Below are positions 6,833-51,993 of a stretch of DNA of 51,993 nucleotides, one piece after another; within the stretch, counting starts at the first letter, position 1; each line of letters opens with the position of its first letter. The notes beneath the pieces are model-generated. The model searched no databases. It was not told the DNA's origin and worked only from the letters and a program-made list of their open reading frames with translations. The stretch is from an uncultured Ectothiorhodospiraceae bacterium (GTDB lineage Bacteria; Pseudomonadota; Gammaproteobacteria; Nitrococcales; Nitrococcaceae), in assembly GCA_913056385.1 (NCBI GenBank), contig CAJXND010000009.1, forward strand, positions 1 through 51,993. The letters run 5' to 3'. A program made the translations under genes and the position numbers.

Positions 6833-9956
<3,124 letters not shown>

Positions 9957-9957
<1 letters not shown>

Positions 9958-9976
9958 GCCGCCCCCGCAGGCGGCC
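9957..9976. terminator. Convergent hairpin between ligA and the foldase gene
   Basis: GGCCGCC-CCCGCA-GGCGGCC is a perfect 7-bp GC stem located exactly between two converging genes. It lacks a U-tract on either strand, so it may act bidirectionally as a pause or processing structure. Confidence 0.45.
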
Positions 9977-9994
9977 CGGGTCCGTCCGGTACGG

Positions 9995-10840: not shown

Positions 10841-11148
10841 TGGCGGTTGGTTTGGGGTCGCTCGGCTTCAGCGGGCGTCAGCGCCTCGATGCTGAGCGCA
10901 TGGATGCAGTCGTCGCGAATGGCGTCGCCCATGGCGTCATAGATCAGGCGATGACGCTGGAGGCGGCCCCGGCCGGCGAAGTCATCACTGATCACCTGGA
11001 CGTGGTAGTGCCCGCCGCCGGCCCGGGCGCCGGCATGACCGGCATGCAGGTGGCTGTCGTCGCGGACCTCCACGTGCAGCACGTCGAGGGCGTGGCAGAG
11101 CCTCTCCCGAATCATTCCGGGCCGCTCGCTCCGGGGAATGTCGTTCAT
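10837..11148 (-). CDS. bolA: BolA family protein
   Basis: A 103-residue BolA-type protein; such proteins partner monothiol glutaredoxins in Fe-S handling and can act in stress and morphology control. The class II KH-like fold is recognisable from [20 protein letters not shown] and the C-terminal [10 protein letters not shown] segment. The start at 11148 is chosen because its ATG overlaps the yciI stop (ATGA) and it removes an unrelated N-terminal extension; the stop overlaps the foldase start in the same way. Confidence 0.92.
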
Positions 11149-11444
11149 GGCAGAACCTTCCGAAAGGGCTTCACTGTGACCTGACGATAGACACCGGCGG
11201 CGACATACGGGTCGGCCTCGGCCCATTCCCGTGCCGCCGCCAGTGACGTGAAGTCGGCAATCACCAGACTGCCGCTGAATCCGGCAGGTCCCGGGTCATC
11301 GGCGTCGATGGCGGGATGCGGGCCTGCAACGAGCAGTCGTCCCTCGTCACGCAGCGCCTCCAGGCGCGCGAGGTGATCGGTTCTCGCCCCGGCCCGACGT
11401 TCGAGGCTATCGTCGATGTCTTCGCTGATGATGGCGTAGTACAT
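11145..11444 (-). CDS. YciI family protein
   Basis: A 99-residue small ferredoxin-like alpha+beta protein of the YciI/DUF1330-like superfamily. It begins MYYAIISED and shows the family features [19 protein letters not shown] and a C-terminal VKPF segment. The biochemical role of the family is mostly undefined, though some act as small dehalogenase- or hydrolase-like enzymes. It is the first gene of the yciI-bolA-foldase operon and diverges from yciO. Confidence 0.88.
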
Positions 11445-11515
11445 GCGTATCGTCCTGTAAGGGGGCCAGACGCTACCATACCTGAGCATGGTGAACACCA
11501 AGGAGAAGAGACGGC

Positions 11516-12139
11516 ATGAGCCAGTACTTCGAGATCCATCCGCAGACCCCCCAGCCGCGACTCATCCGCCGAGCCGTCGAGATCATCCGCGACGGAGGCG
11601 TCATCGTCTATCCGAGCGGTACGACCTACGCCCTGGGCTGTGCCATGGGCGAGAAGACGGCACTGGACCGGATCCGGCGCCTTCGCGGACTGGAGGAGCG
11701 TCACCACTTCACCCTGGCCTGCCGTGATCTGTCCGATATCGGCAGCTATACCCGTGTCGACAACACCGCCTTCCGCCTGCTGAAGGCGCACACGCCGGGG
11801 CCTTATACGTTCGTGCTGCGGGCCACCGCCGAGGTGCCGCGGCGTATCCAGCACGCACGCCGCAAGACCATCGGCATCCGGGTGCCGGATCATCCGGTTG
11901 CCATCGCACTGCTGGAGGCGCTGGGCGAGCCGTTGACCACCAGCACCCTGTTGCTGCCCGGTGAGACCGAGCCGATGACTGATCCCGTGGACATGCGCGA
12001 GCGGCTGGGTAACCAGGTGGACGCGGTGCTCGATGCCGGGCCCGGGGGGCTGGAGCCGAGCACGGTCATCGATCTGAGCGGTGACGCCCCGGAGGTCATT
12101 CGCCGTGGTGCCGGCGATGCACACGTTTTCGAGGCGTAA
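11516..12139 (+). CDS. yciO: YciO, Sua5/YrdC-like protein
   Basis: A 207-residue member of the Sua5/YrdC/YciO RNA-binding fold. It matches the YciO branch ([40 protein letters not shown]) rather than TsaC, so it probably does not make the essential threonylcarbamoyl-AMP for t6A tRNA. A role in nucleotide or tRNA binding is inferred only. It lies 47 bp upstream of trpS and diverges from yciI. Confidence 0.9.
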
Positions 12140-12186
12140 TCCGCTATCATGCAGGGCAGTCTGTCCGGCAAGAAGCGGAGGTCAAC

Positions 12187-13410
12187 TTGAGTCAGACCCT
12201 AGCCAGCGGCGATCGCATCCTCTCGGGTATGCGGCCCACCGGTCGCCTGCACCTCGGGCACTATCACGGCGTGCTCCGCAACTGGATCAGGTTGCAGGAG
12301 ACCAACGAGTGCTTTTTCTTCGTGGCCGACTGGCACGCGCTGACCACCGCGTACGAAAAGCGTGAGGTCATCTCGGAGAGTGTCTGGGACATGGTGGTGG
12401 ACTGGCTCGCCTGCGGGGTGAACCCTAACCTGGCGACGCTGTTCATCCAGTCCAGGGTGGTCGAGCATGCCGAGCTGCACCTTCTGCTGTCTATGATTGC
12501 GCCCCTCGGGTGGCTCGAACGGGTGCCGACCTACAAGGATCAGATTGCCGAGCTGCGCGAAAAGGACCTCGCTACCTACGGCTTTCTGGGCTACCCCGTT
12601 CTTCAGAGTGCCGATATCCTCATCTACGGGGCCAGCGGTGTGCCAGTGGGCGAGGATCAGGTCTCGCACGTGGAGCTCACCCGGGAACTGGCGCGACGCT
12701 TCAATTACCTGTTCGGTCGCGAGCCCGGCTTCGAGGACAAGGCCGAGGCCGCGGTGGGCAAGATGGGCAAGAAACAGGCGCGGCTCTACCGCGAGCTGCG
12801 CCGGCGCTACCAGGAGTCAGGGGATACCGAGGCCCTCGGGGAGGCGCAGGCGCTGCTTGAGGCGCAGCAGAACCTGACCATCGCCGACCGGGCCCGCCTC
12901 GCCGGATATCTTGACGGCGGTGGCCGGAGCGTCCTCGCCGAGCCGGAAGCGCTGCTGACTCACGCCCCGAGGATGCCTGGGCTCGATGGTCGCAAGATGT
13001 CCAAGTCCTATGGCAATACGCTGTCGTTGCGCGAGTCCGATGCCGATATCGATCAGAAGATACGCACCATGCCGACGGATCCGGCGCGGGTCCGGCGCAA
13101 CGATCCGGGCGAGCCGGAAAAATGCCCGGTCTTCGACCTGCATAAGGTCTACTCCGATGCGGATACCCGGGAATGGGTCCAGACCGGTTGTCGTTCGGCG
13201 GGCATCGGTTGTCTCGACTGCAAGAAGCCGCTCATCGGCGCCGTCCAGGCAGAGGTGGCCCCGATCCGCGAGCGGGCGGCGGAACTGGCGTCCGATCCGG
13301 AGCATGTCCAGCAGGTCATCGCCGATGGCTGCGACCGGGCCCGGGGCGTGGCGCGCCAGACCATGCAGGAGGTCCGCTCGGCCATCGGACTGGATTATCG
13401 CCAGCGATGA
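12187..13410 (+). CDS. trpS: Tryptophanyl-tRNA synthetase, long form
   Basis: A 407-residue class I synthetase charging tRNA-Trp. The HIGH-type motif is HLGH (22-25) and the KMSKS loop is at 270-274. It is about 70 residues longer than the 334-residue E. coli enzyme; the extra length is a Lys/Arg/Gln-rich helical insert before KMSKS (about 195-260). The start is TTG at 12187 after AGCGGAGG; no upstream ATG exists. The stop overlaps the scpA start (ATGA), coupling it to scpA-scpB. Confidence 0.95.
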   Translation: MSQTLASGDRILSGMRPTGRLHLGHYHGVLRNWIRLQETNECFFFVADWHALTTAYEKREVISESVWDMVVDWLACGVNPNLATLFIQSRVVEHAELHLLLSMIAPLGWLERVPTYKDQIAELREKDLATYGFLGYPVLQSADILIYGASGVPVGEDQVSHVELTRELARRFNYLFGREPGFEDKAEAAVGKMGKKQARLYRELRRRYQESGDTEALGEAQALLEAQQNLTIADRARLAGYLDGGGRSVLAEPEALLTHAPRMPGLDGRKMSKSYGNTLSLRESDADIDQKIRTMPTDPARVRRNDPGEPEKCPVFDLHKVYSDADTREWVQTGCRSAGIGCLDCKKPLIGAVQAEVAPIRERAAELASDPEHVQQVIADGCDRARGVARQTMQEVRSAIGLDYRQR

Positions 13411-14240
13411 CCGATGCCGGCACCGAAGAGCTGCTCGACCCCTCGGTGGTCGCCACCGTTCAGGGCGAGCCGTTTTCCGAGCTGCCACGGGATCTGTACA
13501 TCCCGCCGGACGCCCTGGAGGTCTTTCTGGAGGCTTTTGAGGGGCCGCTGGATCTGCTCCTCTACCTCATCCGGCGCCAGAACCTGGATATCCTGGATAT
13601 CCCCATTGCCGAGATTACCCGGCAGTACATGCAGTACGTGGACATCATGAAGGATCTGCGGCTGGAACTCGCTGCCGAGTACCTGGTCATGGCCGCCATG
13701 CTGGCGGAGATCAAGTCACGGATGCTCCTTCCCCGGCCGCCGGCTGCGGAATCGGACGAGGATCCCGATCCGCGGGCGGAGCTGGTGCGGCGCCTGCGTG
13801 AGTACGAACAGTTCAAGGCGGCCGGCGAACAGCTTGACGCGCTGCCACGGGTGGCGCGGGATGTCTTCCCCGGGCGGGCGGCAACGGCGGGCCTGAGGCC
13901 GGCCCGGCGGCTTCCCGCCGTGGATCTTGATGAGCTGCTGTCGGCCTTCTCCGAGGTGCTGGGGCGCGCCGCGATGTACAGTCATCATCAGATCCGGCGG
14001 GAGGCGCTCTCGGTCCGCGAGCGAATGAGCGAGACGCTGGAGCGACTGGAGGGTGATCGTTTCATGGCACTGGACGAACTGTTGCGTCCCGAGGAAGGGC
14101 GGGCGGGTGTGGTGGTGACTTTTCTCGCCATTCTCGAGCTGCTCAAGGCAGCGCTGGTCGAGCTCGTGCAGGCGGAGCCCTTTGCGCCGCTCTACCTGCG
14201 CAGCGGCGATTTGATGCCGGGGGTGGGCCGCGATGAGTGA
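13407..14240 (+). CDS. scpA: Segregation and condensation protein A (kleisin)
   Basis: A 277-residue kleisin that bridges the heads of the SMC dimer encoded at 3264-6779. It shows the N-terminal SMC-binding helix region (FEGPLDLLLYLIRRQNLDI), the middle YLVMAAMLAEIKSRMLLP helix and the C-terminal winged helix with VVTFLAILELLK. The ATG at 13407 overlaps the trpS stop; its own end overlaps scpB by 8 bp. Confidence 0.96.
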   Translation: MTDAGTEELLDPSVVATVQGEPFSELPRDLYIPPDALEVFLEAFEGPLDLLLYLIRRQNLDILDIPIAEITRQYMQYVDIMKDLRLELAAEYLVMAAMLAEIKSRMLLPRPPAAESDEDPDPRAELVRRLREYEQFKAAGEQLDALPRVARDVFPGRAATAGLRPARRLPAVDLDELLSAFSEVLGRAAMYSHHQIRREALSVRERMSETLERLEGDRFMALDELLRPEEGRAGVVVTFLAILELLKAALVELVQAEPFAPLYLRSGDLMPGVGRDE

Positions 14241-14808
14241 ACCGGTCATGGAAAACATTCTTGAGGCGGTGCTCCTGGCGGCGGGTGAACCGCTATCGGT
14301 TGATCAGTTGCAGGTGGTTTTCGGCGATGACCCGCCACCGCGACGGACGGTCGAGCAGGCCCTGGAGCGGCTCTCCGCACAGCTCACCGGCCGGGGCGTC
14401 GAGTTGCAGCGCGTGGCGAGCGGTTACCGTCTCCAGGTGCCCGGCCGATACGCCGGTTGGGTATCACGGCTGTGGGATGAGAAACCTGCCCGCTATTCCC
14501 GGGCGGTGCTCGAGACACTGGCGATCATTGCCTATCGGCAACCGATCACCCGGGCGGAAATCGAAGAGGTCCGTGGTGTGACCCTCAGCAGCAATATCAT
14601 GCGTACGCTGCAGGAACGCGGGTGGGTGCGTGTCGCCGGCCATCGGGATGCGCCGGGTCGGCCGGCGGTCTTTGCGACCACCCGTGATTTCCTCGATTAC
14701 TTCAATCTCAGCAGCCTCAGTGAGCTGCCGACGTTGATAGAGATTGGCGAGCCGGGCCCTGATCATCCGGAGCTCGATCTGCCGATCCCGAACCAGGGGC
14801 CTGCATGA
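14233..14808 (+). CDS. scpB: Segregation and condensation protein B
   Basis: A 191-residue SMC-ScpAB subunit with two winged-helix domains. It binds ScpA and stimulates the SMC ATPase cycle. The signature segments YSRAVLETLAIIAYRQPITRAEIE and GRPAVFATTRDFLDYFNL are intact. Overlaps with scpA (8 bp) and rluB (ATGA) indicate translational coupling. Confidence 0.96.
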   Translation: MSEPVMENILEAVLLAAGEPLSVDQLQVVFGDDPPPRRTVEQALERLSAQLTGRGVELQRVASGYRLQVPGRYAGWVSRLWDEKPARYSRAVLETLAIIAYRQPITRAEIEEVRGVTLSSNIMRTLQERGWVRVAGHRDAPGRPAVFATTRDFLDYFNLSSLSELPTLIEIGEPGPDHPELDLPIPNQGPA

Positions 14809-15644
14809 GCTCGGAGAAACTGCAGAAGGTGTTGGCGCGGGCCGGGCTGGGGTCGCGCCGGGAGATGGAGCGGCGCATCGAGGCCGGTCGGGTTCAGGTC
14901 AATGGCCATCGGGCGACCCTCGGCGACCGGGTCGAGCCGGGGGCACGCATTCATCTGGATGGCCGTCCGGTGAGTGCGGCGGCGCTGGCGCCGACGGACC
15001 GTCGCGTGATCGTCTACCACAAGCCGACCGGTGAGCTGGTCACCCGCAGCGATCCTGAGGGGCGGCGCACGGTCTTCCGGCGCCTGCCTCCACTCAGGAG
15101 CGGGCGCTGGCTGGCGGTCGGGCGTCTCGACATCAACACCTCGGGGCTTCTGTTGCTGACAACGGATGGCGAGCTCGCCAATCGCCTCGCGCACCCGTCA
15201 TACCGCCTGGTTCGAGATTATGCCGTGCGCATTTTCGGCCAACTCGACGAGGCAACGCTGCGGCGACTTACCGAGGGCGTCACGCTGGAGGACGGACCGG
15301 CTGCCTTCGAGTCCATTCTGCCACTGGATGCGGGCGAGGCCGCGAACAGCTGGTACCGGGTCAGGCTTCGCGAGGGCAAGAATCGCCTCGTCCGCCGGCT
15401 CTGGGAGTCGCAGGGCGTGCAGGTGAGCCGCCTCATGCGTGTCCAGTACGGGCCGATCGAGATGCCGGCCGGCCTGCGCGAGGGGCAGGTCAAGGCACTG
15501 ACGGCGGGCGAGGTCCGTCATCTCGCGGAACTCGTGGATCTCGGCGACGAGGGCGGTGGAGACCGGGCGCACAAGCGCCATCGACCGCCATCGCCCCGGC
15601 ACGGAGGAAGGCGGCCAGGGCATGAGCGAAAACGGCGCGGCTGA
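14805..15644 (+). CDS. rluB: 23S rRNA pseudouridine synthase RluB family
   Basis: A 279-residue enzyme of the RsuA/RluB family. It has an N-terminal S4 RNA-binding domain (2-60) and a catalytic domain with the active Asp109 in GRLDINTSGLLLLT. The C-terminus (about 240-279) is a basic Arg/His/Gly-rich tail, as in RluB, thought to bind rRNA. The scpA-scpB-rluB order is conserved. The tail is overlapped by the next gene's start. Confidence 0.93.
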   Translation: MSSEKLQKVLARAGLGSRREMERRIEAGRVQVNGHRATLGDRVEPGARIHLDGRPVSAAALAPTDRRVIVYHKPTGELVTRSDPEGRRTVFRRLPPLRSGRWLAVGRLDINTSGLLLLTTDGELANRLAHPSYRLVRDYAVRIFGQLDEATLRRLTEGVTLEDGPAAFESILPLDAGEAANSWYRVRLREGKNRLVRRLWESQGVQVSRLMRVQYGPIEMPAGLREGQVKALTAGEVRHLAELVDLGDEGGGDRAHKRHRPPSPRHGGRRPGHERKRRG

Positions 15645-16329
15645 TCCGGTGTCGGCGGCCACCGACCGCACCGCCGTCCCCCGCCTGTTCGACCGGCTGC
15701 TGACGGCGCTGGGGCCCCAGAGCTGGTGGCCGGCGGAGAGCGCATTCGAAGTGCTGGTGGGTGCGGTGCTTACCCAGAATGCCGCATGGCGCAATGTCGA
15801 GCAGGCCATCGACCGTCTTCAGGCCCATGACTGGATGACGCCGGAGGCGATACTCGCCGCGCCCCGGGAAGAGCTGGCCGAGTGCCTGCGCCCGAGTGGG
15901 TACTACAACGTGAAGTCCCGGCGGCTGCGTGCCGCCTGTGAGACCTGGCTGGCGCTGGGTGGCGAGGCGGGGCTGATGGATATGGAGACCGCGGCCATGC
16001 GGTCGGCCCTGCTCGAGGTCAAGGGACTTGGGCCGGAGAGTGTGGACGATGTTCTGTTATACGGCTTCCGCCGCCCGGTTTTCGTGGTCGACGCCTATAC
16101 CCGGCGGATATTCTCGCGCATTGGCCTGGTCTCGCCACGCATCGGCTACGACGGCCTACAGGCGCTGTTTCATGATGCCCTTGCGCCGGATGTCGGGCAA
16201 TTCAACGAGTTTCATGCCCTGATCGTCACCACCGGCAAATCGTACTGCAGGCCGCGCATGCCGCGATGCGAGGCCTGTCCTCTGTGCCGTGACTGTGCTC
16301 ACGGACTGTCCCGGGATCAGCGCTCGTAG
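15622..16329 (+). CDS. Endonuclease III-domain DNA glycosylase, MagIII-like
   Basis: A 235-residue HhH-GPD glycosylase with a C-terminal [4Fe-4S] loop spaced C-X6-C-X2-C-X5-C (CRPRMPRCEACPLC...C). The helix-hairpin-helix is KGLGPESVDDVLLY followed by VDAY, where the Asp is kept but the Lys that makes endonuclease III a bifunctional lyase is replaced. This pattern resembles the MagIII (3-methyladenine glycosylase) branch, so monofunctional base removal is more likely than AP-lyase activity. The start at 15622 lies inside the rluB end and is preferred over an upstream in-frame Met by family length. Its end overlaps the opposing PEBP gene by 13 bp. Confidence 0.88.
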   Translation: MSENGAADPVSAATDRTAVPRLFDRLLTALGPQSWWPAESAFEVLVGAVLTQNAAWRNVEQAIDRLQAHDWMTPEAILAAPREELAECLRPSGYYNVKSRRLRAACETWLALGGEAGLMDMETAAMRSALLEVKGLGPESVDDVLLYGFRRPVFVVDAYTRRIFSRIGLVSPRIGYDGLQALFHDALAPDVGQFNEFHALIVTTGKSYCRPRMPRCEACPLCRDCAHGLSRDQRS

Positions 16330-16790
16330 GTGCCGATCAGCCGGTTCATGCCGATGACATGGGGCTCCACCTGGTCGAGGAACTGCCAGAGGGTCAGTCC
16401 CGGCTCCAGGTGCAGTGACTGATCCAGGGCGAGCACCCAGAAGTAGTAGTGGTGCACGCCGTGGCCCTCCGGCGGCATTGGCCCACCATAGGTCTGCTTG
16501 CCGAAATCCGTGACGCCGTGGGTGTACGCCTCACTGCCCTCGTCCAGGGCGGTGACGTCGCCGGGGATGTTGTAATAGACCCAGTGGACGAAACCGTAGC
16601 TACCCGGGCTGACCAGTGGCGCATCGGGGTCATGGCAGATCACGGCGAAGCCCTGGGTGCCCTCGGGTGCGCCGGTCCAGTGAATGGGCGGTGCGATGTC
16701 TTCACCCTCACCGGTATGGCGGACCGGAATAGGCTGATGGAGTCCGAAGGCGTTACTTCGGACCTGCAGGGCCGATAAGGCGAATCCCAT
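16317..16790 (-). CDS. YbhB/YbcL family PEBP (Raf-kinase-inhibitor-like) protein
   Basis: A 157-residue phosphatidylethanolamine-binding-protein fold. The ligand-pocket motifs are present: CHDPDAP, GFVHWVYYNIPG, and YGGPMPPEGHGVHHYYF. No signal peptide is visible, so it is probably cytosolic, as is E. coli YbhB. The physiological ligand of the bacterial family is unknown. It converges with the glycosylase gene. Confidence 0.93.
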   Translation of the reverse strand: MGFALSALQVRSNAFGLHQPIPVRHTGEGEDIAPPIHWTGAPEGTQGFAVICHDPDAPLVSPGSYGFVHWVYYNIPGDVTALDEGSEAYTHGVTDFGKQTYGGPMPPEGHGVHHYYFWVLALDQSLHLEPGLTLWQFLDQVEPHVIGMNRLIGTYER

Positions 16791-16822
16791 GGCGTGTTCT
16801 CCACTCCCGTTTCAAGTGTTGC

Positions 16823-16860
16823 GCATGCTTGCACTTCCACTGGCCTTGTCACAAGCATGC
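16823..16860. repeat. Perfect 9-bp inverted repeat, 20-bp spacer
   Basis: GCATGCTTG (16823-16831) and CAAGCATGC (16852-16860) are exact inverted arms. They lie downstream of the SDR gene and upstream of the PEBP gene, both on the minus strand. It could be a terminator stem without U-tract or an operator for the PEBP gene. Confidence 0.55.
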
Positions 16861-16868
16861 CATATCTG

Positions 16869-17630
16869 TCAGGCCACTACCCGGTACATGCCACCGTTGA
16901 CCGGCGTGCTGGTCGGGTCGAGTAACCCGTTGATAACCGCGGCGGCACCGGCGGGCGAGGGGGCCTCGTCGGCCGCCTCGCCGGTAAAGAGTTGCCGCCT
17001 CAGGCGCGTCTGCATTGCTCCCGGGTCAACGCTGCAGCTGATCACTGGATGAATCGGCGAGTGCTCGGCGGCAAGCGTCGCCATGATGCCCTCGACGGCC
17101 CATTTGCTGACGGCGTAGGCGCCCATGGCAGCCCGGCCCTCACGACCTGCCTCGTCACTCACGAATATGACACGCCCACCGCTCGCCTTCAGCAATACCA
17201 GAAGGGCCTGGGTCAACAGGAAGCTTGCGTTGATGTTCACATGCAGGCACTTGAGCCAGGCTTGAGGGTCATAGAGCGTCAATGGTGCCGGTTCGCCGAA
17301 GTCGGCGGCCGCATGCACCGCCGCATCAAGGCCACCGAGCTCCTGTTCGATTCGATTGGCAAGCTCGGCGTAATCATCCGGCGACGCACCCATCATGTCG
17401 AGAGGGTAGAGCGCCGGCTGCCGGTGACCGGCCGCCTCGATGCGGTCATGCAGCGACTCCAGTGCCTTGAGGTCCTTGTCGAGAAGGACGAGTTCCGCGC
17501 CTTCGGCCGCTGCATGTTCCGCGAGCGCACTGCCAAGGCCGCCGGCAGCGCCGGTAATCAGCACGCGCTGTCCATCAAGCCGGTCGGGTTGGGCCGGGCC
17601 TTGTGCGCCGGAGCTGATCTCGATGGTCAT
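16869..17630 (-). CDS. Short-chain dehydrogenase/reductase, YciK-like
   Basis: A 253-residue SDR with the dinucleotide site TGAAGGLG, the catalytic Ser in VSDEAG and the YxxxK pair in GAYAVSKWA. The overall pattern (LDKDLKALESL, SVDPGAMQTRLR) resembles YciK. The substrate is unknown. It is last in the ubiG-gph-synthase-like-SDR operon, its ATG overlapping the previous stop by 4 bp; YciK-like genes commonly sit next to ubiG and gph in this class. Confidence 0.9.
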   Translation of the reverse strand: MTIEISSGAQGPAQPDRLDGQRVLITGAAGGLGSALAEHAAAEGAELVLLDKDLKALESLHDRIEAAGHRQPALYPLDMMGASPDDYAELANRIEQELGGLDAAVHAAADFGEPAPLTLYDPQAWLKCLHVNINASFLLTQALLVLLKASGGRVIFVSDEAGREGRAAMGAYAVSKWAVEGIMATLAAEHSPIHPVISCSVDPGAMQTRLRRQLFTGEAADEAPSPAGAAAVINGLLDPTSTPVNGGMYRVVA

Positions 17631-18496
17631 TGCACGGGCTCCTCGGGTCGGGGGCGGACGTTGTGCGGTCGTCGGGCGGTGCGCCAGGCGAGCCAGAGCT
17701 TTCGAAGCGGAGTCAGGTGGACCTGGCGCTCGGTCACCGCGTGGCCGTCGCCGGCAATGCTGTCCAGAAGCTGCCGATAGACCACTGCCAGGATCAGTCC
17801 GTAGGTCTGGGATTTCCGGGCATGGCCGGGCAGGCGGCTGATCGCGCTGTCGAGAAAGCGCCGGGCCCGGTCACCCTGGCGGGAGAGGAGATCTCTGGCC
17901 GCCGGCGGTTGCTCGCTCTGCAACAGAGTATCCGGGTCGAGTCCGGTCACCGCGAGTTCGTCCTCGGGGATATAGACTCGGCCGGCCCGCAGGTCGCGCC
18001 GCAGATGACGCAGCATGCGGGTGAGCTCGAGACCCATCGACAGATCGTGCGCGAAAGGCGCGGCGTCGGCTCCGTTGGCACCGGTAATCCGCCAGGCCAG
18101 GTCGGCGACGGCACCACCGGCGCGATGGCAGTACAGCGTAAGCTCGCGCAGGGTCGGGTAGCGGCCGTATTCAAGGTCCATACGGCTCGCCTCGACGACT
18201 TCGGCAAGTCCGCTGGTATCGAGCTCGTCGCGGCGGATGACCGGCAACAGCGCCTGGGTAATCGGATGGCGGGGCTCGCCTGCATCGAGGCGCTCGAGCT
18301 CTTCCTGCCACCAGGACAGCTTCACTGCGCCGATGCCGGCATCGCTCACCTCCCGAGGGACCTCCAGCACCTCCGCGCGGTAGGCGGCCAGCGCGGTCAG
18401 GCCGTCCCGTGCGACAGGTGGCGCAAAGAGCAGGGCGTAGTAGAGGCTGGAGCCCTCCGGGGCAACCTTGCGCCGGCAGTAGTCGAGTGGATCCAT
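17627..18496 (-). CDS. Squalene/phytoene synthase-family protein with degenerate active site
   Basis: A 289-residue all-helical protein of the squalene/phytoene synthase superfamily, recognisable by LSWWQEELERLDAG, AYRAEV at the first helix and GRVYIPEDEL near 180. Both Asp-rich DxxxD motifs that bind Mg-diphosphate are replaced (AYRAEVLEVPRE and TRMLRHLRRDLRAG). The pattern is like the NDUFAF6 group, a complex I assembly factor without prenyl synthase chemistry. It is therefore probably not a terpenoid enzyme; a respiratory assembly role is inferred. It sits between gph and the SDR in an overlapping operon headed by ubiG. Confidence 0.8.
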   Translation of the reverse strand: MDPLDYCRRKVAPEGSSLYYALLFAPPVARDGLTALAAYRAEVLEVPREVSDAGIGAVKLSWWQEELERLDAGEPRHPITQALLPVIRRDELDTSGLAEVVEASRMDLEYGRYPTLRELTLYCHRAGGAVADLAWRITGANGADAAPFAHDLSMGLELTRMLRHLRRDLRAGRVYIPEDELAVTGLDPDTLLQSEQPPAARDLLSRQGDRARRFLDSAISRLPGHARKSQTYGLILAVVYRQLLDSIAGDGHAVTERQVHLTPLRKLWLAWRTARRPHNVRPRPEEPVQ

Positions 18497-44583: not shown

Positions 44584-45155
44584 TGACGAACCCCGAGGGC
44601 CACGACTGGGCGACATCGCTTCCGGCGCTCCATGGCCAGGCCTGGAAGCGTCTTGAGCGCGGGGTGGCGGACCGCCGTGCCCCGGGTCGGCATCCGACAC
44701 TGGCCACGGTCGATGACCGGGGCCGTCCGCAGGCGCGCACGGTCGTGCTGCGCGCCGCGGACCGCACGGACGCATGCCTTAAGGTGTATACCGATCGGCG
44801 CTCGGACAAGGTGGAAGAGCTGCGGGCCAACCCGGTTGCCGGTCTCCACTTCTGGGACCCCGGCGCGCACTTGCAGATCCGCCTGCAGGGGGATGTCCGG
44901 GTATTCGCCGGAGAATCGGTCCGGTCGGTCTGGGAAGGTCTCAGTGATTACGCCAGGGATTGCTATGGTCGCGATCCGGCGCCGGGCAATGCGCTCGATG
45001 ACGCGCTTGCCTACCGGAAATGGCCCGAGCCAGGCGCATTGGCCGTCCTCGAGATCAGGCTCCAGGAGATGGACATTCTCCATCTGGGCCGTCATCACCG
45101 ACGTGCACGGTATGAACGCTCCGATGGATGGGCAGGTCTCTGGCTTGTTCCCTGA
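44583..45155 (+). CDS. Pyridoxamine 5'-phosphate oxidase-family flavoprotein
   Basis: A 190-residue split-barrel FMN-binding protein of the Alr4036/PNPOx-like family. PTLATVDDRGRPQARTVVLR, DRRSDKVEELRANP and LQIRLQGDVRV form the FMN/phosphate-site pattern. It lacks the complete PdxH C-terminal domain, so true PNP oxidase activity is uncertain. The GTG at 44583 overlaps the binding-protein TAG by one base, placing it in the transporter operon. A PLP link to polyamine metabolism is plausible but inferred. Confidence 0.85.
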   Translation: MTNPEGHDWATSLPALHGQAWKRLERGVADRRAPGRHPTLATVDDRGRPQARTVVLRAADRTDACLKVYTDRRSDKVEELRANPVAGLHFWDPGAHLQIRLQGDVRVFAGESVRSVWEGLSDYARDCYGRDPAPGNALDDALAYRKWPEPGALAVLEIRLQEMDILHLGRHHRRARYERSDGWAGLWLVP

Positions 45156-45381
45156 GAGGAAGGCACAGACTAGTCGCCTGGCCGGGCCTCGCCGGTGCAC
45201 CAGAATGCCGCGATGTGATGGCCACGACGCGCGCAGCGCGCCAGATATCGCAGGATGAAGCTGCAATCGCGGCAACCGCGGAGGCGAACCAGGCCGACCG
45301 GCGTCAAATGAAGACTGAATCGACCGCGGCCTGACATGGACCGCTTTCCTTCCACAATCACTCAGCCAGGAATCCCAGCAG

Positions 45382-45837
45382 ATGACCTCCCACCGGATCC
45401 TTTCGCGCCTCGCGGTTGCTGCATCCATCGCCATCGCAGGCGCGGTGCACGCTGAGACGGCTTATCCGCCCGTTGACGTTTTGCTGCAATCGGAAACGAC
45501 GATCATCGGACAACCGATCGTCTACCCCGATGGCCCTGCTCAAATCACGGCCGCCATCGTTACCATGGAATCCGGTCAAGCCACAGGTTGGCATAGGCAT
45601 GAGGCACCGCTTACGGCCCATATGCTGGAGGGTGAGCTGACCGTTGACTACGGGCCTGATGGCACTCGGGTCTATCGCGAAGGCGACACCCTGGTTGAAG
45701 CACTTGACTCAAGCCACAACGGCAAAAATACCGGCGAGGGGATCGCCCGCATCTTTGTTGTGTTTTCAGGAGCAGTTGGAACACCGAACACGGTGATGAT
45801 GGCTCCCCGGGACGGATTCGAACCGCCGACCCAGTGA
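45382..45837 (+). CDS. Exported cupin-domain protein, C-terminus reading into a tRNA fragment
   Basis: A 151-residue protein: signal peptide (VAASIAIAGAVHAE) and one cupin beta-barrel with the metal-ligand pattern GWHRHEAPLTAHMLEGEL and a second half-motif around EALDSSHNGKN. Family members bind a divalent metal; the reaction is unknown. The last 12-13 codons (MAPRDGFEPPTQ) are antisense to the tRNA-Asn 3' fragment at 45800-45848, including the stop codon, so the native C-terminus probably ended near GTPNTV. Base composition looks lower in GC than the operon upstream. The 226 bp before it hold no convincing gene. Confidence 0.82.
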   Translation: MTSHRILSRLAVAASIAIAGAVHAETAYPPVDVLLQSETTIIGQPIVYPDGPAQITAAIVTMESGQATGWHRHEAPLTAHMLEGELTVDYGPDGTRVYREGDTLVEALDSSHNGKNTGEGIARIFVVFSGAVGTPNTVMMAPRDGFEPPTQ

Positions 45838-45848
45838 TTAACAGTCAC
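45800..45848 (-). other. att site: 3' fragment of tRNA-Asn (GTT)
   Basis: Read on the minus strand: GTGA-CTGTTAA-TCACT (anticodon loop with GTT), variable loop, T-arm GGCGG-TTCGAAT-CCGTC, 3' acceptor strand CCGGGGA, discriminator G and encoded CCA at 45800-45802. The D-arm and 5' acceptor strand are absent; sequence diverges right after the anticodon stem. This is the classic att remnant left when a tyrosine integrase recombines in the anticodon stem-loop. Confidence 0.88.
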
Positions 45849-46017: not shown

Positions 46018-47229
46018 ATGAAACTCAGCGATAAAGCCGTCCAGTCTATAGAGCCTCCGGAGCGCGGACGAAAAACGATAAGCGATGACCATCGTGATGC
46101 TCCACGCGGCTTTGCGCTGCGCGTGTACTCGACAGGTACCCGAGTTTTCGTCCTCCGTTACAAGTCGAGCGGGAAGGACCGGCTCATCAACATCGGCGAG
46201 TACCCGACTTGGACGCTGACGGCGGCTCGGCGGAAAGCAACTGAACATCGAAGGAAAATAGACTCAGGCCACGACATCTTGGCGGAGCGGGCCCAGCGTC
46301 AGGCAGAACCAGTTGTCCGCGATGTCGCCGAGGCCTTCCTCAAATCGAAGGCGGACCTCAAGAGTCATCAGGCCATGGAGAGATCGCTGAATCGCTTCGT
46401 GATCCCAATGGTCGGCGACTGGAAGGGGACCGACGTGCGTCGAGGCCACGCTATATCAATAGTCGAGGACGCGGCTCCAAGTGGTCCCCGGCAAGCTGCT
46501 CTTGTCCTAACTTATATGAAACAGATGTTTGCGTGGGCTGAGGATCGTGAACTTGTTGAGGTGAATCCTATTGCCAGTCTGCAGCCGGCGAAAATCGGCA
46601 AGTCGCTCAGGCCCCGTCGGCGCGGGAGAGTTTTGTCGGAGGAGGAGATCCGGACCTTTTGGGAGCGCATAGAGACCTGTGGAGTGCATCGCCTCACTGC
46701 GTTGGCTCTCAAGTTGGTGCTGGTGACAGGCCAACGGCCCGGCGAGGTTGCAGGGATGCGCATGGACGAGCTGGATGGCGATCTATGGAAAATACCTGCG
46801 GTGCGGCGAGGCAAGACCAATACTGACCAAGTTGTGCCCCTCACGGCGACTGCGCGGGCGCTGCTGGATTGCGCTGCTGCGGAAACCAACCGACTCAATC
46901 AGCGTAATGAGAGGACCGGTGCCTTCGTATTTGAGGCCAGACCCGGAAGCCCGCTTACAGCTCCGGCAATGGCGCTCGCAGTTCGGCGGTATGCCGAGGC
47001 TCTCGGAAATCACAGCGATAAAGTCGACGGGACTTGGACGCCACATGATCTCCGTCGAACGATGCGCACCGGCTTAGCGGCTCTGGGTGTAGACGAGGTG
47101 ACCGCCGAGGCGACCATAGGGCATACGCGCAAAGGCATCGCAGCCGTCTACGATGTCCATGGTTATGGTGAGCAAAAGCGCGCGGCACTTGAGGCTTGGG
47201 AAAAGAAATTGCTGAGCGTCGTCCGGTAA
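46018..47229 (+). CDS. P4-type tyrosine site-specific integrase
   Basis: A 403-residue recombinase. The N-terminal DUF4102-like arm-binding domain (about 1-90, LRVYSTGTRVFVLRYK) is followed by a core-binding SAM-like domain (about 100-190) and the catalytic domain. Active-site residues: Arg in TGQRPGEV, HxxR in TPHDLRR (His343, Arg346), His369 in IGHT and the nucleophile Tyr378 in AVYDVHGY. All are intact, so it should be active. It lies next to the tRNA-Asn att fragment and probably catalyses integration there. Confidence 0.96.
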   Translation: MKLSDKAVQSIEPPERGRKTISDDHRDAPRGFALRVYSTGTRVFVLRYKSSGKDRLINIGEYPTWTLTAARRKATEHRRKIDSGHDILAERAQRQAEPVVRDVAEAFLKSKADLKSHQAMERSLNRFVIPMVGDWKGTDVRRGHAISIVEDAAPSGPRQAALVLTYMKQMFAWAEDRELVEVNPIASLQPAKIGKSLRPRRRGRVLSEEEIRTFWERIETCGVHRLTALALKLVLVTGQRPGEVAGMRMDELDGDLWKIPAVRRGKTNTDQVVPLTATARALLDCAAAETNRLNQRNERTGAFVFEARPGSPLTAPAMALAVRRYAEALGNHSDKVDGTWTPHDLRRTMRTGLAALGVDEVTAEATIGHTRKGIAAVYDVHGYGEQKRAALEAWEKKLLSVVR

Positions 47230-47266
47230 TGCCCTCCAAGAGGTACGCCTACGGGAGAAAATTTCT

Positions 47267-47920
47267 ATGACGCTCTCGCCCGAGGAACCCGATCAGATCT
47301 GCGCCATAGCTCAGAGGATGGAAGCGATCTGGGGTACGCCCGGACTCGCGGAGGCTGTGGAACAGAAGAATCCACCGCTCGTTGCCGAACTCTGCTTCTC
47401 AAACGGCGTGAGAGACGGAGACGAGAATTTATTCAGTGCTGCAGCCTTCTACGTGGATGGAGCGCAGGATCTGCAGAAGCCATCAGAGGGCCTCATCCGA
47501 GGGGAAATGAGAAGGGCCCAGCTCGGGCTGCCTCAGCAGGCTGTGCTGGCGAAGAGCGCGAAGGAGGGAGACTTGTTTGCGTGGGACGTCTGCCTCATCT
47601 TGCTGGTGGCCAACGCATACGGGCTCGACACAAGGCCACTTCACAATGATCTGCACAAGCTTGCCGCTCATGCGGTGCAGGGGACCTATCGGCGTCCGAC
47701 AGCGAAGGGGGCTCCCAAAAAAACGATACGTGATCAGCATATAGCGTACGCGGTTCTATTCGCCGTCTCGGCGGGTTTGACCCCAACGAGAAACGAGACC
47801 AGCCAGCCCAACAGCGCATGCGATTTGGTTGCTCAAGAACTGCTGAATCGTGGAGTTGCCCTTTCCTACAGTGCTGTTGAGTCGATCTGGAAGCGTCACC
47901 GCAGGGCATGGTCGCTGTAG
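47267..47920 (+). CDS. Unknown 217-aa protein of the element
   Basis: I do not recognise a family with a known function. The protein is soluble, mostly helical, with no signal peptide or membrane segment. A central segment (WDVCLILLVANAYGLDTRPLHNDLHKL) is followed by a Lys/Arg-rich linker (about 140-155) and a C-terminal part (LLNRGVALSYSAVESIWKRHRRAW) that could be a small DNA-binding helical unit, with LTPTRNE before it. It lies between the integrase and the AlpA-like gene, where accessory recombination or regulatory proteins are often encoded. A perfect hairpin begins at its stop codon. Confidence 0.7.
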   Translation: MTLSPEEPDQICAIAQRMEAIWGTPGLAEAVEQKNPPLVAELCFSNGVRDGDENLFSAAAFYVDGAQDLQKPSEGLIRGEMRRAQLGLPQQAVLAKSAKEGDLFAWDVCLILLVANAYGLDTRPLHNDLHKLAAHAVQGTYRRPTAKGAPKKTIRDQHIAYAVLFAVSAGLTPTRNETSQPNSACDLVAQELLNRGVALSYSAVESIWKRHRRAWSL

Positions 47921-47943
47921 GGAAAAAAGATTTATTTTTTCCC
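47920..47943. terminator. Perfect A/T-tract hairpin after the 217-aa gene
   Basis: GGGAAAAAA-GATTTA-TTTTTTCCC is an exact 9-bp inverted repeat starting on the last base of the stop codon. The U-run is inside the stem rather than after it. It could terminate, or be an operator upstream of the AlpA-like gene at 48003. Confidence 0.5.
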
Positions 47944-48002
47944 GATGAGTCCTCTCGGCAAGCTCTGCAACCTAGCTCCGTCACCGACAAACGGAGCAGG
48001 AA

Positions 48003-48212
48003 ATGCACACGAACAGCAACCTCACGACGAACGAATCGGCCTCATACCTCCGTCAATCAACCCGCACCCTGATTCGCTGGCGTAACCAGCGCATCGGCCC
48101 GCCTTGGGTTCGAGTAGGCGGCAAGGTGCTCTACAGACAGCGTGATCTCGATGCTTGGCTGGAGGACCAGACGGTTCAGCCAGTGGCGAATGATAGCGGG
48201 GAGGTCGCCTGA
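48003..48212 (+). CDS. AlpA/excisionase-type helix-turn-helix protein
   Basis: A 69-residue MerR-like winged HTH (HTH_17): TNESASYLRQSTRTLIRWRNQRIGPPWVRVGGKVLYRQRDLDAWL, ending with a short flexible tail. AlpA activates integrase/excision in CP4-57-like elements, and excisionases share the fold. It probably controls excision or the replication genes just downstream, which begin 2 bp after its stop. The ATG follows GGAGCAGGAA. Confidence 0.9.
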   Translation: MHTNSNLTTNESASYLRQSTRTLIRWRNQRIGPPWVRVGGKVLYRQRDLDAWLEDQTVQPVANDSGEVA

Positions 48213-48214
48213 CC

Positions 48215-49249
48215 ATGGAGACACTCCACCGCGATTCCACATCAACAGCCGCCTCGCTCGGATCGGGCGCCGCATCTGCTTATCCCGGCGCATCCATCTC
48301 AAGGTCCGGGCTGCCGGATCAAGGACAGCGGCAACAGCGTTATGGGGCCGCGGCCCTGCAGCGAGCGGTCGCCGCCGTGGCCTCGGCTCAGCCGGGTAGC
48401 CGCAACGAGGTGCTAAACCGCGAGGGGTACAGCATTGGACGTCTGGTCGGCACCAACGTCCTCGCCGAAACCGATGCCCGCGAAGAGTTGATCGCTGCCG
48501 GCTTGGCTGCGGGACTACCGGCATTCGAGGTCCGATGCACGGTTACCAGCGCACTGCGGGCCGGCATCAGCAACCCCCGTATCGTGACGGATTTGGGGAT
48601 GTCTCCCGCCGACCTCGAGCAGGAACGTCAGCGTGCCGAGGCTGCACGAAAGAGGGCTGCGGCGGATCGACTTCGCAGGGAGGCTGCGGCCGCGGATCGG
48701 GCCGCTCAGATCTGGGGCGTTTGTTACCCCGCGGCTCCTGAGCACCCTTACCTGCAGGCCAAACACGTGCCGCCGCTTGCTGCCCGGCAGCGGGGGAGCC
48801 AGCTAGTTCTGCCGGTAACCGAACTGGTAACGGGCCGGATGACCAGCCTGCAATTCATCGGGAAGGACGGAAGCAAAAAACTCCTGTCCGGCGGCCGGAA
48901 GCGTGGATGCGTTATCTACGTCGCCGGCGAAATGAAAAAGGCATGCCGCGTGCTAGTTGCCGAGGGCTGGGCGACGAGCGCCAGTCTCTCCAGCATCGAG
49001 CCCGAGTCCCTTGTCCTGTCGGCGATCGATGCCGGCAACCTCCGCCCAGTAGCGTTAGAAGCGCGGCGTCTCTGGCCAGACAAAGAGTTGATCATCTGCC
49101 CGGATGCCGACCCTGAGGGCGAGCGGAAAGGCCGGGCTGCCGCAGTGGCAGCAGGCGCCGCAATCGCAGCACCTCACTTCCCGGAGGGGGTCGCGGGCTC
49201 TGACTGGAACGACTTCGTCAACGCCGGCTTTGGGGAGCGTCAGTCATGA
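48215..49249 (+). CDS. Toprim-domain primase-like protein
   Basis: A 344-residue protein. The N-terminal 130 residues are Ala/Ser/Gly-rich, a charged helical Arg/Ala/Glu stretch (about 135-170, probable coiled coil) follows, and the C-terminus is a Toprim domain with the catalytic Glu in VAEGWAT and the metal-binding DADPEGERKG. It resembles the Toprim part of phage and satellite primases. No N-terminal CHC2 zinc finger is seen here; a zinc-ribbon protein is encoded separately two genes downstream. Its stop overlaps the ATPase start (ATGA). Confidence 0.86.
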   Translation: METLHRDSTSTAASLGSGAASAYPGASISRSGLPDQGQRQQRYGAAALQRAVAAVASAQPGSRNEVLNREGYSIGRLVGTNVLAETDAREELIAAGLAAGLPAFEVRCTVTSALRAGISNPRIVTDLGMSPADLEQERQRAEAARKRAAADRLRREAAAADRAAQIWGVCYPAAPEHPYLQAKHVPPLAARQRGSQLVLPVTELVTGRMTSLQFIGKDGSKKLLSGGRKRGCVIYVAGEMKKACRVLVAEGWATSASLSSIEPESLVLSAIDAGNLRPVALEARRLWPDKELIICPDADPEGERKGRAAAVAAGAAIAAPHFPEGVAGSDWNDFVNAGFGERQS

Positions 49250-51117
49250 AAAACACCAAGGACCAATCGCCTTCGGATTCTCATGTCCCTGCGGTCCCCG
49301 ATGTCATCCCATTGAATGAATGGGAAAAATCTGGTGACAAAAGTCCTCAGCAGGACATGTCCGAGATGTCACCACTCGAGCCGAAATCACCGCTCCACTC
49401 ACCGCCGGCGGAGGTTCCAGAAACGCAGATCAAACGACCGAGCGACCGAACGCATGATGACTGGTTCAGGAGTGACGGCGAGGACTTCAAACCGGGCCTC
49501 TACCACCACATGATCGACAGAAATGGCAACCCGAAGGATATCTGGATCTGCTCGCCCATCCATGCCATCGCGATGAGCCGAAGCGAGCATGGTGATAACT
49601 ATGGGCTCCTGCTGAGGTTCATGACCGCCGAGGGATCATGGCGTGAATGCACGATGCAGATGCAGGCGCTCGCGAGCAGCGCCGATGATCTCCGCGGTGA
49701 ACTTCTTGATCAGGGCGCCCGGATCAATCCCGATGAATATAAACGTCTCAACCGCTGGCTCATGGCGCAGCATCCAGACGAGCGGATAGTCGCGGCTTCG
49801 CGCACCGGCTGGCATAACAACGCATTCGTTCTTCCGAGCCGCACAATTGGCGATGCGCGGGTTCGGTTTCAGTCGGAGTCCGTCGGCCACGACAACTTCA
49901 CTTGCAGCGGCGAGCTCGAGGGTTGGCAGAGCGAGGTCGCGGAGCCCTGCCGAGGAAACCCAGTGCTGATGCTCTCAGTCTCGATCGCATTAGCCGGGCC
50001 ACTGGTTTGGCTCGCGAAGCAACAAACGAGCGGCGGCGCGGGTGTCCATCTGGTCGGGGATAGCAGCCGCGGTAAGACCACAGCACTCCAAGCCGCGGCG
50101 AGCGTATGGGGGCCTCCCGAGTTTGTCGGGACATGGCGAGCCACTGCTAATGGCCTTGAGGCAAAGGCAGCGGCCTTGAACGACACGGTTCTGGTGCTGG
50201 ACGAGATCAGCGAGTGCGATCCCCGCGAGATCGGGAGCATTGTGTACTCGCTCGCGAATGGTCATGGCAAGCAGCGAGCCAGACGGACTGGTGGGAGCCG
50301 GGTGGCCCAACGCTGGCGGTTGATGGCGCTGTCGAGTGGCGAGCGCACCCTCGGCGAACACATGGCCGAGGCGGGTCGAAATAGTAAGGCCGGGCAGGAG
50401 GCCCGTCTGCTCGATGTGCCGGCAACCCGGCAAACCCATGGCGTATTTGACAGCCTGCATAGCTGCCCAGATGGTCGCGCGTTCGCGGACCAGATGAAGC
50501 GGACCTCCGCCACACACTACGGACATGCCGGCCCGGCATTCGTAAAGGCGCTTCTTGCTTCCGACGCTGACTTTCCCGCGCTCCATGCCCGCATGCCTGC
50601 TCGTCCGGAATTCGCCGCAGGCGGCGGACAAGACGCACGTGCGGCTACATGGTTTGCTCTGGCCGCGCTCGCCGGTGAACTTGCTTGCGAACACGGCATC
50701 GTCCCATGGAAATCCGGTGAGGCGATAGAAGCCGCCGCTTGGGCACTTCAGGCGTGGAGAGAGAACCGGGGATCAGGTGAGACAGAAGATCGCCAAATCC
50801 TTCAGGGTATACGGGAGTTCATCGAGCGGCATGGGGAAGCGCGCTTCAGCGCTTTGCAAAGCAACTCAATATCGCCTGTCCGTGATCGCGCAGGATATTG
50901 GCGCGATGAGCCGGGAGGCCGGGTCTTTCTCTTCTTCTCGGGCGCACTCCGAGAGGCGGCAAACGGCTATAACACCCGCCGCATAACAGAGGCTTTGGAC
51001 AACGCCGGGTGGCTGGCGCAACGGGACCCTAAAGCCCGCTCAACGCGGATCGATGGTGAAGGCGATGGCCAGATCCGGGTCTACGCCGTCCGGCCGAGCG
51101 AGGAGGGCCCGGTATGA
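49246..51117 (+). CDS. DUF927-domain ATPase/helicase
   Basis: A 623-residue protein. After a polar, Pro/Ser-rich N-terminus (1-70) comes a DUF927 region (about 75-400) with a P-loop GDSSRGKTT and Walker B VLVLDEISE, and the sensor-like segment RLMALSSGERTL. A C-terminal winged-helix-like part (about 515-610) follows. DUF927 proteins are RecA/AAA-like ATPases next to Toprim primases in mobile elements and are presumed replicative helicases. The pairing with the Toprim gene supports a replication module for the element. Confidence 0.9.
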   Translation: MKNTKDQSPSDSHVPAVPDVIPLNEWEKSGDKSPQQDMSEMSPLEPKSPLHSPPAEVPETQIKRPSDRTHDDWFRSDGEDFKPGLYHHMIDRNGNPKDIWICSPIHAIAMSRSEHGDNYGLLLRFMTAEGSWRECTMQMQALASSADDLRGELLDQGARINPDEYKRLNRWLMAQHPDERIVAASRTGWHNNAFVLPSRTIGDARVRFQSESVGHDNFTCSGELEGWQSEVAEPCRGNPVLMLSVSIALAGPLVWLAKQQTSGGAGVHLVGDSSRGKTTALQAAASVWGPPEFVGTWRATANGLEAKAAALNDTVLVLDEISECDPREIGSIVYSLANGHGKQRARRTGGSRVAQRWRLMALSSGERTLGEHMAEAGRNSKAGQEARLLDVPATRQTHGVFDSLHSCPDGRAFADQMKRTSATHYGHAGPAFVKALLASDADFPALHARMPARPEFAAGGGQDARAATWFALAALAGELACEHGIVPWKSGEAIEAAAWALQAWRENRGSGETEDRQILQGIREFIERHGEARFSALQSNSISPVRDRAGYWRDEPGGRVFLFFSGALREAANGYNTRRITEALDNAGWLAQRDPKARSTRIDGEGDGQIRVYAVRPSEEGPV

Positions 51118-51812
51118 GCCTCGAGGATCTCCTGCCTCCTCTGCCGAGGACATCTATGACATGGCGCATCGAAATTGATGTCCCAGAAAAAGGTGAATTA
51201 AATCATACAGATGACATCAACGACATCGATGACAGCACTCAAAACGCAGAGGTCATCAGTCCCGTTCTGGATTCTGGAGGCTATCCGGCGTCGCCATGCA
51301 GAGTATGCAGAGGGGGCAGCTTCTTTCGCGACAGGGACGAGTGGCGCTGTGTGCGGTGCCACCCTCCCGCCGAGTCACCCTCGCATTGGTGCACCGTTCC
51401 CGGCGGCATTGTTCCTGATGGCGAGCCTCAGGATCTTGAGACGATTCTGGAGCAGGCTGTCGCCGAGACGGATATCCGCGTGGCGGACCTGCATGAAGCG
51501 CTGGATGCGAGAGACAGAGATGACATCCGCCACGGCCGGGTGACTATTCGAAACCTGCGCGCTTTCGCCGCGACGTTGGATTCAAAGCTTACCCGTTCTG
51601 CCGAGCCGGTCCGTTGCGTCAACTGCGTGCATTTCCGGCGCCGGGCGTATCACCCACATCTCGGGAGTTGTGCGGCAGGAGTACCACCGGATGGCGCTGC
51701 CGGTTTGTGGGATACCGATCGTCGACTCTGCGCATCATTCTCAGCAGCCGGCCCGGAACCTTCTCGTCGGGAGGAATCGGGCGCGGTCATGCTGAGCGGA
51801 TTTGCCAAATGA
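51114..51812 (+). CDS. Unknown protein with two Cys-rich (zinc-type) sites
   Basis: A 232-residue protein with an acidic N-terminal stretch (about 20-50, DDINDIDD). A zinc-ribbon-like site follows (CRVC...CVRCHPP, about 62-83), then a helical middle (LETILEQAVAETD...) and a second Cys site (CVNCVHF...C...C, about 168-207). The first site resembles the separate zinc ribbons seen beside Toprim primases, so it may supply the template-binding function missing from the 344-aa protein. Its ATG overlaps the ATPase stop, so it is in the same operon. Function is inferred only. Confidence 0.8.
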   Translation: MSLEDLLPPLPRTSMTWRIEIDVPEKGELNHTDDINDIDDSTQNAEVISPVLDSGGYPASPCRVCRGGSFFRDRDEWRCVRCHPPAESPSHWCTVPGGIVPDGEPQDLETILEQAVAETDIRVADLHEALDARDRDDIRHGRVTIRNLRAFAATLDSKLTRSAEPVRCVNCVHFRRRAYHPHLGSCAAGVPPDGAAGLWDTDRRLCASFSAAGPEPSRREESGAVMLSGFAK

Positions 51813-51831
51813 TTTCGGATGGAGGTGGATC

Positions 51832-51993
51832 ATGCCAAAGCCGTCTCAGTATCGCCTGACCGGGGACATCCCGGAGATCGACGTCCGGCGTTGGCGCAAG
51901 CATGGCCATCTCGAACCGGGGCATCGTTTTGTCTCCCGGTGGTTTGCAGGCGATGAGTGCTACGCCAGCATGAACGTCCACGTCGAGTCCCAC
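51832..51993 (+). CDS. Unknown element protein, cut by the window end
   Basis: The first 54 codons of a gene beginning MPKPSQYRLTGDIPEID, with a strong GGAGGTGG ribosome site 4 bp before the ATG. No family is recognised from this fragment, and the 3' end lies outside the window. It follows the zinc-site gene after 19 bp and is probably in the same transcript. Confidence 0.6.
   Translation, partial: MPKPSQYRLTGDIPEIDVRRWRKHGHLEPGHRFVSRWFAGDECYASMNVHVESH

Follow-up and report, generated by a model that had tools for sequence, protein, structure and literature searches.

Phage P4 combines an integrase, an AlpA-like regulator, primase and helicase functions and a tRNA site. All of these recur in the element described here, which occupies positions 46018-51993 of contig CAJXND010000009.1 from an uncultured Ectothiorhodospiraceae bacterium. 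This contig (C9) was analyzed at its full length of 51993 bp and is referred to below as the window; the source genome comprises 1.95 Mb in 86 contigs. The P4 primase is one fused primase-helicase protein of 777 amino acids (aa), whereas here a Toprim protein and a DUF927 protein are encoded by two genes. Capsid-forming phage-inducible chromosomal islands (cf-PICIs) have their own capsid, portal and terminase genes. None of these three was detected by Pfam and PHROG in the sequenced part of the element (46018-51993), nor was a relaxase. As the window is a whole contig, the absence of a capsid gene from this part is uninformative about the rest of the element.

Among described elements, phiAH14b (KU708005) has the order integrase, open reading frame (ORF), AlpA and, further on, a separate Toprim gene and a separate helicase gene with a short overlap, as here, and its DUF927 protein is 39.7% identical over 91%. 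It differs in having eleven genes between AlpA and Toprim, an integrase that is only 24% identical and a right arm that is known. The original report (Dziewit and Radlinska, 2016; PMC4936722) describes phiAH14b, termed a putative satellite by its authors, as co-induced with phiAH14a and packed in the same capsid. The Pseudomonas aeruginosa elements pHS87b and vB_Pae_U10 also have separate Toprim and DUF927 genes with a 4-base overlap (DUF927 39.9% identical), and pHS87b is likewise integrated in a tRNA 3′ end, although that of tRNA-Thr. Unlike the sequenced part of our element, both are annotated with a P2/GpN-type capsid gene, and pHS87b also with an ogr/Delta-like gene. According to the pHS87b paper (PMC4739549), tRNA-Thr is ~98% occupied and the circle is about twofold more abundant than the integrated form. 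Its authors found no known replication genes and merely suggested a TOPRIM protein and unknown proteins.

Phage-inducible chromosomal minimalist islands (PICMIs; PMC10803314) have the same compact order of integrase, integrase-adjacent gene, alpA and primase. They differ in integrating at fis, here tRNA-Asn, and in using a DUF3987/DUF5906 primase, here Toprim_3 plus DUF927. For PICMI115, the same paper reports that int, alpA and the integrase-adjacent gene are required for excision and the primase for copying. Gram-negative PICIs (PMC6092414, PMC10111431) have int, alpA and replication genes in one direction, as here, and AlpA is required for induction of one of them (PMC6092414). They are induced by helper phages and packaged into phage particles, and they carry terS (in some) or a helper cos/pac site, and interference genes; no gene of these kinds was matched in 46018-51993.

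A preliminary description of the locus had called it satellite-like, and this is borne out by the tRNA attachment duplication, the gene order and the relatives phiAH14b, vB_Pae_U10 and pHS87b, although an equally close relative, pTAO100, is a plasmid record. The element adds to a widespread kind that is already familiar from phage satellites studied by experiment, and brings a host genus and the tRNA-Asn site to a common replication module.

Insertion of the element at tRNA-Asn

The element and its left end comprise the following features.

45800-45848, tRNA on the − strand: left attachment site (attL), 49 bp that duplicate tRNA-Asn from its anticodon arm to CCA at the 3′ end (nt 27-75), exact repeat of the start of contig C50
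46018-47229, + strand: tyrosine recombinase (integrase), 403 aa; Phage_integrase PF00589 1.6e-19, Arm-DNA-bind_3 PF13356 8.9e-19, PHROG_1 1e-49
47267-47920, + strand: ORF of 217 aa between int and alpA, without family match, listed by position only
48003-48212, + strand: AlpA/excisionase-like HTH_17 protein, 69 aa; HTH_17 5.9e-13, PHROG_66 (excisionase and transcriptional regulator) 2e-9
48215-49249, + strand: Toprim primase-like protein, 344 aa; Toprim_3 1.9e-9, PHROG_2249 (DNA primase) 2.4e-41
49246-51117, + strand: predicted DUF927 AAA-type replicative helicase/initiator, 623 aa; Pfam DUF927 1.1e-80
51114-51812, + strand: cysteine-rich protein, 232 aa, directly 3′ of the helicase gene; weak same-position relative in locus L137, E 9e-4
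51832-51993, + strand: ORF cut by the contig end, first 54 aa; relatives in loci L113 (E 1.3e-3) and L151 (E 0.023)

The element is site-specifically inserted and its attachment site is duplicated at both ends. The copy at 45800-45848 matches C50:1-49 at 49 of 49 positions. ARAGORN placed an intact tRNA-Asn at the opening of C50 (positions 1-75, − strand) and found no tRNA in the window. Beyond the tRNA-Asn of C50 the chromosome resumes, with genes that by eye resemble those for aspartate aminotransferase and UvrB. The sister genome G002 has an empty site: one intact tRNA-Asn in the 10 kb examined, with the C9 and C50 flanks on either side (left 86.6% identity over 2152 bp, right 88.7% over 4001 bp). 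Thus, the 49-bp duplication, the intact tRNA and the empty site indicate entry into the tRNA 3′ half, with the tRNA rebuilt at the far end. We infer that C50 is the right end of the element; the far arm between the two contigs is unassembled. The G+C content, in 2-kb steps, is 0.62-0.70 before 46 kb and 0.58-0.62 after.

ORF calling and Pfam confirmed the order and coordinates in the preliminary description (int, unknown ORF, AlpA-like, Toprim, DUF927, cysteine-rich), and all six complete ORFs are open. It had also described continuous overlaps from 49246 onward. There are two 4-base ATGA overlaps, Toprim/DUF927 at 49246-49249 and DUF927/cysteine-rich at 51114-51117, but they do not continue to the end, as the ATG ORF at 51832 begins 19 bases past the preceding stop. 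The last complete gene was previously termed a zinc protein. Cysteines are present at 62/65, 79/82, 93 and 168/171/186/206, but the protein has no Pfam (or NCBIfam) match, and its single-sequence fold failed (predicted local distance difference test, pLDDT, 40; not usable). Relatives of the 51832 ORF are 208-212 aa long, lie downstream of DUF927 and are zinc-ribbon-like by eye.

The 217-aa ORF gave no match in Pfam, PHROG, PADLOC or NCBIfam, and its single-sequence fold is poor (pLDDT 47) and not usable. By its place, which is the iolg/icg position in PICMIs, it is a candidate excision partner. The Phage_AlpA model was not among the Pfam matches of the 48003-48212 protein. PADLOC linked this protein weakly to mad1 (7e-4) and gave one match at 0.039 for the cysteine-rich protein; we adopt no defence-system reading.

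Searches of the assembly did not recover the right arm. The contig tail (15 to 127 nt) overlaps none of contigs C46-C80 (C81-C86 read as N and do not allow comparison), no repeat of it elsewhere in the assembly was reported, and a full-length relative of the 51832 ORF, compared with the assembly at an E cut-off of 10, returned only the window's own piece. C50 begins precisely at the CCA end, though the 49-bp repeat is shorter than the 77-bp overlaps between other contigs. This start fits reads with two left neighbours, suggestive of some cells without the element; low-coverage assembler behaviour could have the same effect. At the other end, ~640 bp (45152-45795) that separate attL from the chromosomal flank have no counterpart in the alignment with the G002 empty site. 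A cupin gene (45382-45837) lies mostly inside this unaligned segment and reads into the tRNA copy.

The Toprim and DUF927 genes and their relatives

By profile comparison, the DUF927 protein is homologous to a solved helicase and a solved pathogenicity-island protein. A profile of seven sequences, its own included, matched PDB entries 8tch_A (“Pathogenicity island protein,” 1e-40) and 5dgk_A (“Active helicase,” 1.2e-29), both of staphylococcal origin; here the homolog adjoins a Toprim protein. Walker A is at 271 and Walker B at 316. One paper names a DUF927 protein of a Staphylococcus aureus genomic island a bona fide helicase (PMC5862659), and another compares DUF927 helicases to staphylococcal cassette chromosome (SCC) Cch and SaPIBov1 Rep (PMC10061031). 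For pHS87b replication, the homology of the DUF927 neighbour to solved helicase and pathogenicity-island proteins suggests an answer, and one that is directly testable. In the Toprim protein, E250, D297 and D299 are invariant among seven aligned sequences, and its profile matched nothing in the PDB better than E 0.2. Its N-terminal ~110 residues (window 48215-48560) align poorly with six relatives, which suggests, from the alignment, a swapped domain.

The preliminary description took the splitting of the replication genes as a distinguishing mark, which did not survive comparison with relatives. One scan of genome contigs with an alignment query confirmed 301 DUF927 relatives among 408 candidate stretches; single-protein DUF927 scans confirmed none in IMG/VR or genome contigs. 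We compared the best 80 of the 301 with 80 viral contigs. Toprim is a separate adjacent ORF in 40 of the 80 genome loci and part of the same ORF in 18; the 22 loci with no Toprim call may include divergent or fused Toprim, the profile having been made from split-type relatives. On the viral contigs the genes are split in 15/80 and fused in 7/80, with no Toprim call in 58/80. The two-gene arrangement is therefore ordinary and already known, and the separate genes in 40 of the 80 nearest genome loci rule out that a split primase is new. DUF927 is also matched by 74 records of a plasmid collection and 25 of a phage collection, all at <60% identity. Among genomes of increasing distance, and counting its own, the protein occurs in 1/14 of the genus, 1/23 of the family and 6/54 of the order.

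To the right of the helicase gene, relatives vary. A flanking repeat of at least 17 bp was found in 28 of 94 loci tested, of which 18 were judged by eye to be repeat-bounded islands and retained, almost all on account of a tRNA-like repeat; seven genome loci (terminator-like or otherwise unclear repeat) and three viral loci were dropped. The 18 islands range from 5.4 to 14.6 kb, with a median of 10.1 kb. Because ORF calling was mechanical and took the longest first, some of the 100 and 96 ORFs scanned do not represent genes; the four family listings each show 25 families, out of 41, 58, 122 and 94. Among the families listed for 100 right-arm ORFs of the 18 islands are terminase and portal, both in locus L117, and single matches to BstA abortive infection, DarB-like antirestriction and O-antigen acetylase proteins. 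Type I restriction-modification genes recur among 96 further ORFs of 230 aa or more, taken from 47 of the remaining 62 loci (another 11 were too short for use), and no packaging gene is among the families listed for these. Targeted profile searches of the 80 genome loci found relatives of the large terminase subunit (TerL) and portal in 1/80 and of TrwC in 0/80.

The compact locus L151, whose repeat is not tRNA-like and which was kept for its clean map, has 7.7 kb between repeats with int, a fused Toprim-DUF927 gene and small ORFs. The last ORF called on its + strand ahead of the right repeat is related to the 51832 ORF, so the absent arm may be short. Right of the helicase in order-level relatives (56-57% DUF927 identity), locus L077 (G031, 8471-17839) has genes for a single-stranded DNA-binding protein and a methyltransferase, and L079 has a ProQ/FinO-family gene.

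Mode of transfer and rival explanations

We favor, with a probability of roughly 0.6, a satellite-like integrative element in the tRNA-Asn 3′ half that excises, replicates itself and is probably packaged by a helper. The duplicated 49-bp target, the intact far-side tRNA, the integrase and the two-gene replication module are seen directly. Further support comes from the empty site in G002, from annotated relatives with the same split module (phiAH14b, which is packaged, and vB_Pae_U10 and pHS87b, both with a capsid gene and the latter also circular), from the homology of the helicase to solved proteins, from the excision and copying requirements of PICMI115 and from two genomes (G007 and G013) with related integrases at the same tRNA-Asn, in islands that have a terminase-large-subunit-like gene.

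By analogy with these systems, a signal, most likely from a helper phage, would raise AlpA, which together with the integrase, and perhaps the 217-aa ORF, would excise the element as a circle. The DUF927 protein would then act as an origin-opening replicative helicase with the separate Toprim protein as its primase. Copies would be packaged by helper machinery and integrate at the tRNA-Asn of the next cell. The remainder of the 51832 ORF and the right attachment site (attR) most probably lie in the absent right arm, perhaps along with a short segment devoted to cargo or interference. Helper packaging is the least certain step, given that no helper was seen in the host assembly and that a related integrase serves a relaxase island in G014.

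Several results weigh against this reading. Pfam and PHROG revealed no packaging, capsid-redirecting or helper-interference gene in 46018-51993. In the host assembly, where two families were tried, a resident helper went unseen: there was no HK97-type capsid (PF05065) and only a background terminase match (5.6e-4). Iteron-like origin repeats searched for were none of them convincing, the window had no Rfam match at the gathering threshold, and the 217-aa ORF and the cysteine-rich protein have almost no detectable relatives. Two further points, the integrase of G014 and the plasmid record pTAO100, lend themselves to rival explanations.

The G014 integrase, 60% identical to that of the window, serves a ~29-kb tRNA-Phe island (L268 3051 to L269 12125) with a TrwC relaxase (3.8e-81) and a TrwB-type coupling protein (6.3e-55), and we rejected the notion that the integrase by itself identifies a satellite. 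An integrative mobilizable element would integrate and replicate in the same way but move by conjugative transfer, through a relaxase or origin of transfer (oriT) in the absent right arm. DUF927 genes are also reported from Vibrio islands mobilized by IncA/C plasmids (PMC4958241). We regard such an element as a less likely possibility. DUF927 is unmatched in G014, and the families listed (25 of 41) for the 100 right-arm ORFs of the 18 repeat-bounded relatives include no relaxase. The relaxase half of the G014 protein matched no ORF of 172 loci (E 1e-3), other relaxase types not being searched singly. The helicase part matched four, and the 17/80 viral loci that match the full-length TrwC profile were therefore not accepted as relaxases.

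A second rival is a self-replicating, integrative plasmid-like island that bears cargo and has no helper-dependent route of its own for transfer. The best-scoring plasmid relative, pTAO100 (Candidatus Nitrosoglobus terrae), is a 6.4-kb record with separate adjacent Toprim and DUF927 genes, as here (DUF927 39.7% identical), and differs in having them beside RepM with no annotated integrase. Compact relatives such as L151 have just int, the fused gene and small ORFs, and pHS87b, which exists both as a circle and integrated, is described as a site-specific integrative plasmid (PMC4739549). However, pHS87b itself has a P2-type capsid gene and an ogr/Delta-like gene, and phiAH14b is packaged; we consider a plasmid-like island improbable. 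That the locus is a decayed, immobile remnant seems very improbable: the right arm is indeed unassembled, but none of the six complete ORFs is interrupted, the Toprim and Walker motifs are in place and the tRNA copies are identical over 49 bp.

The tRNA-Asn site in the genus

In 13 of 14 genus genomes we detected the tRNA-Asn together with its right flank, G008 yielding short matches only. Four of the 14, our own included, have a second, partial copy of 48-50 bp. Islands of ~8.3 kb (G007) and ~9.7 kb (G013) lie between the tRNA-Asn copies. Their integrases are 52% and 48% identical to that of the window, and both encode related AlpA-like proteins. Their replication proteins differ: G007 has a DUF3987 protein (1.8e-96), G013 a protein of 921 aa with matches to PHROG primase families. 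Both encode a terminase-large-subunit-like protein (PHROG_2 1.1e-21 and 3.6e-22, Pfam below cut-offs) in the following regions.

L084 8781-10534: terminase-large-subunit-like region, G007 tRNA-Asn island
L085 5194-6935: terminase-large-subunit-like region, G013 tRNA-Asn island

A 116-120-aa protein, 41% identical between G007 and G013, is encoded directly before the terminase-like gene, and the G013 island further encodes a protein of 149 aa that is similar to a portion of head maturation proteases. The scanned ORFs (5/11 in G007 and 7/11 in G013) included none recognised as a capsid or portal gene; the unscanned ones, integrases aside, are at most 175 aa. Genus-wide, strong PHROG_2 matches are confined to G005 and the islands of G007 and G013, others being 1e-5 to 1e-3. 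As the control matches in 11 of the 14 named genomes, little weight attaches to weak matches.

These islands could belong, with our element, to a satellite family at the genus tRNA-Asn site, with one integrase clade, exchanged replication modules, its own large terminase and conserved small gene, and no recognised capsid or portal. Such a family would bring its packaging motor and borrow a helper shell, and the same terminase pair would lie in the absent right arm here. We offer this as a speculative and rather unlikely proposal. Islands that share this site but differ in replication module, and that carry a terminase-like gene, would form a useful natural series on what a satellite must itself supply.

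Other islands were noted in passing. In G003 (L082 1672 to L083 6595), a partial tRNA-Asn copy and an intact one enclose ~25 kb of genes that by eye look metabolic or transport-related, no integrase being noticed among them. The G014 island has several very large genes, possibly a defence cluster, the single one scanned having no Pfam match. A tRNA-Lys island of ~13 kb in G021 (L270 2997-15937) has an integrase 51% identical to that of the window and encodes, in addition, a minor-tail-like protein and a Nu1-like small terminase (1.4e-14).

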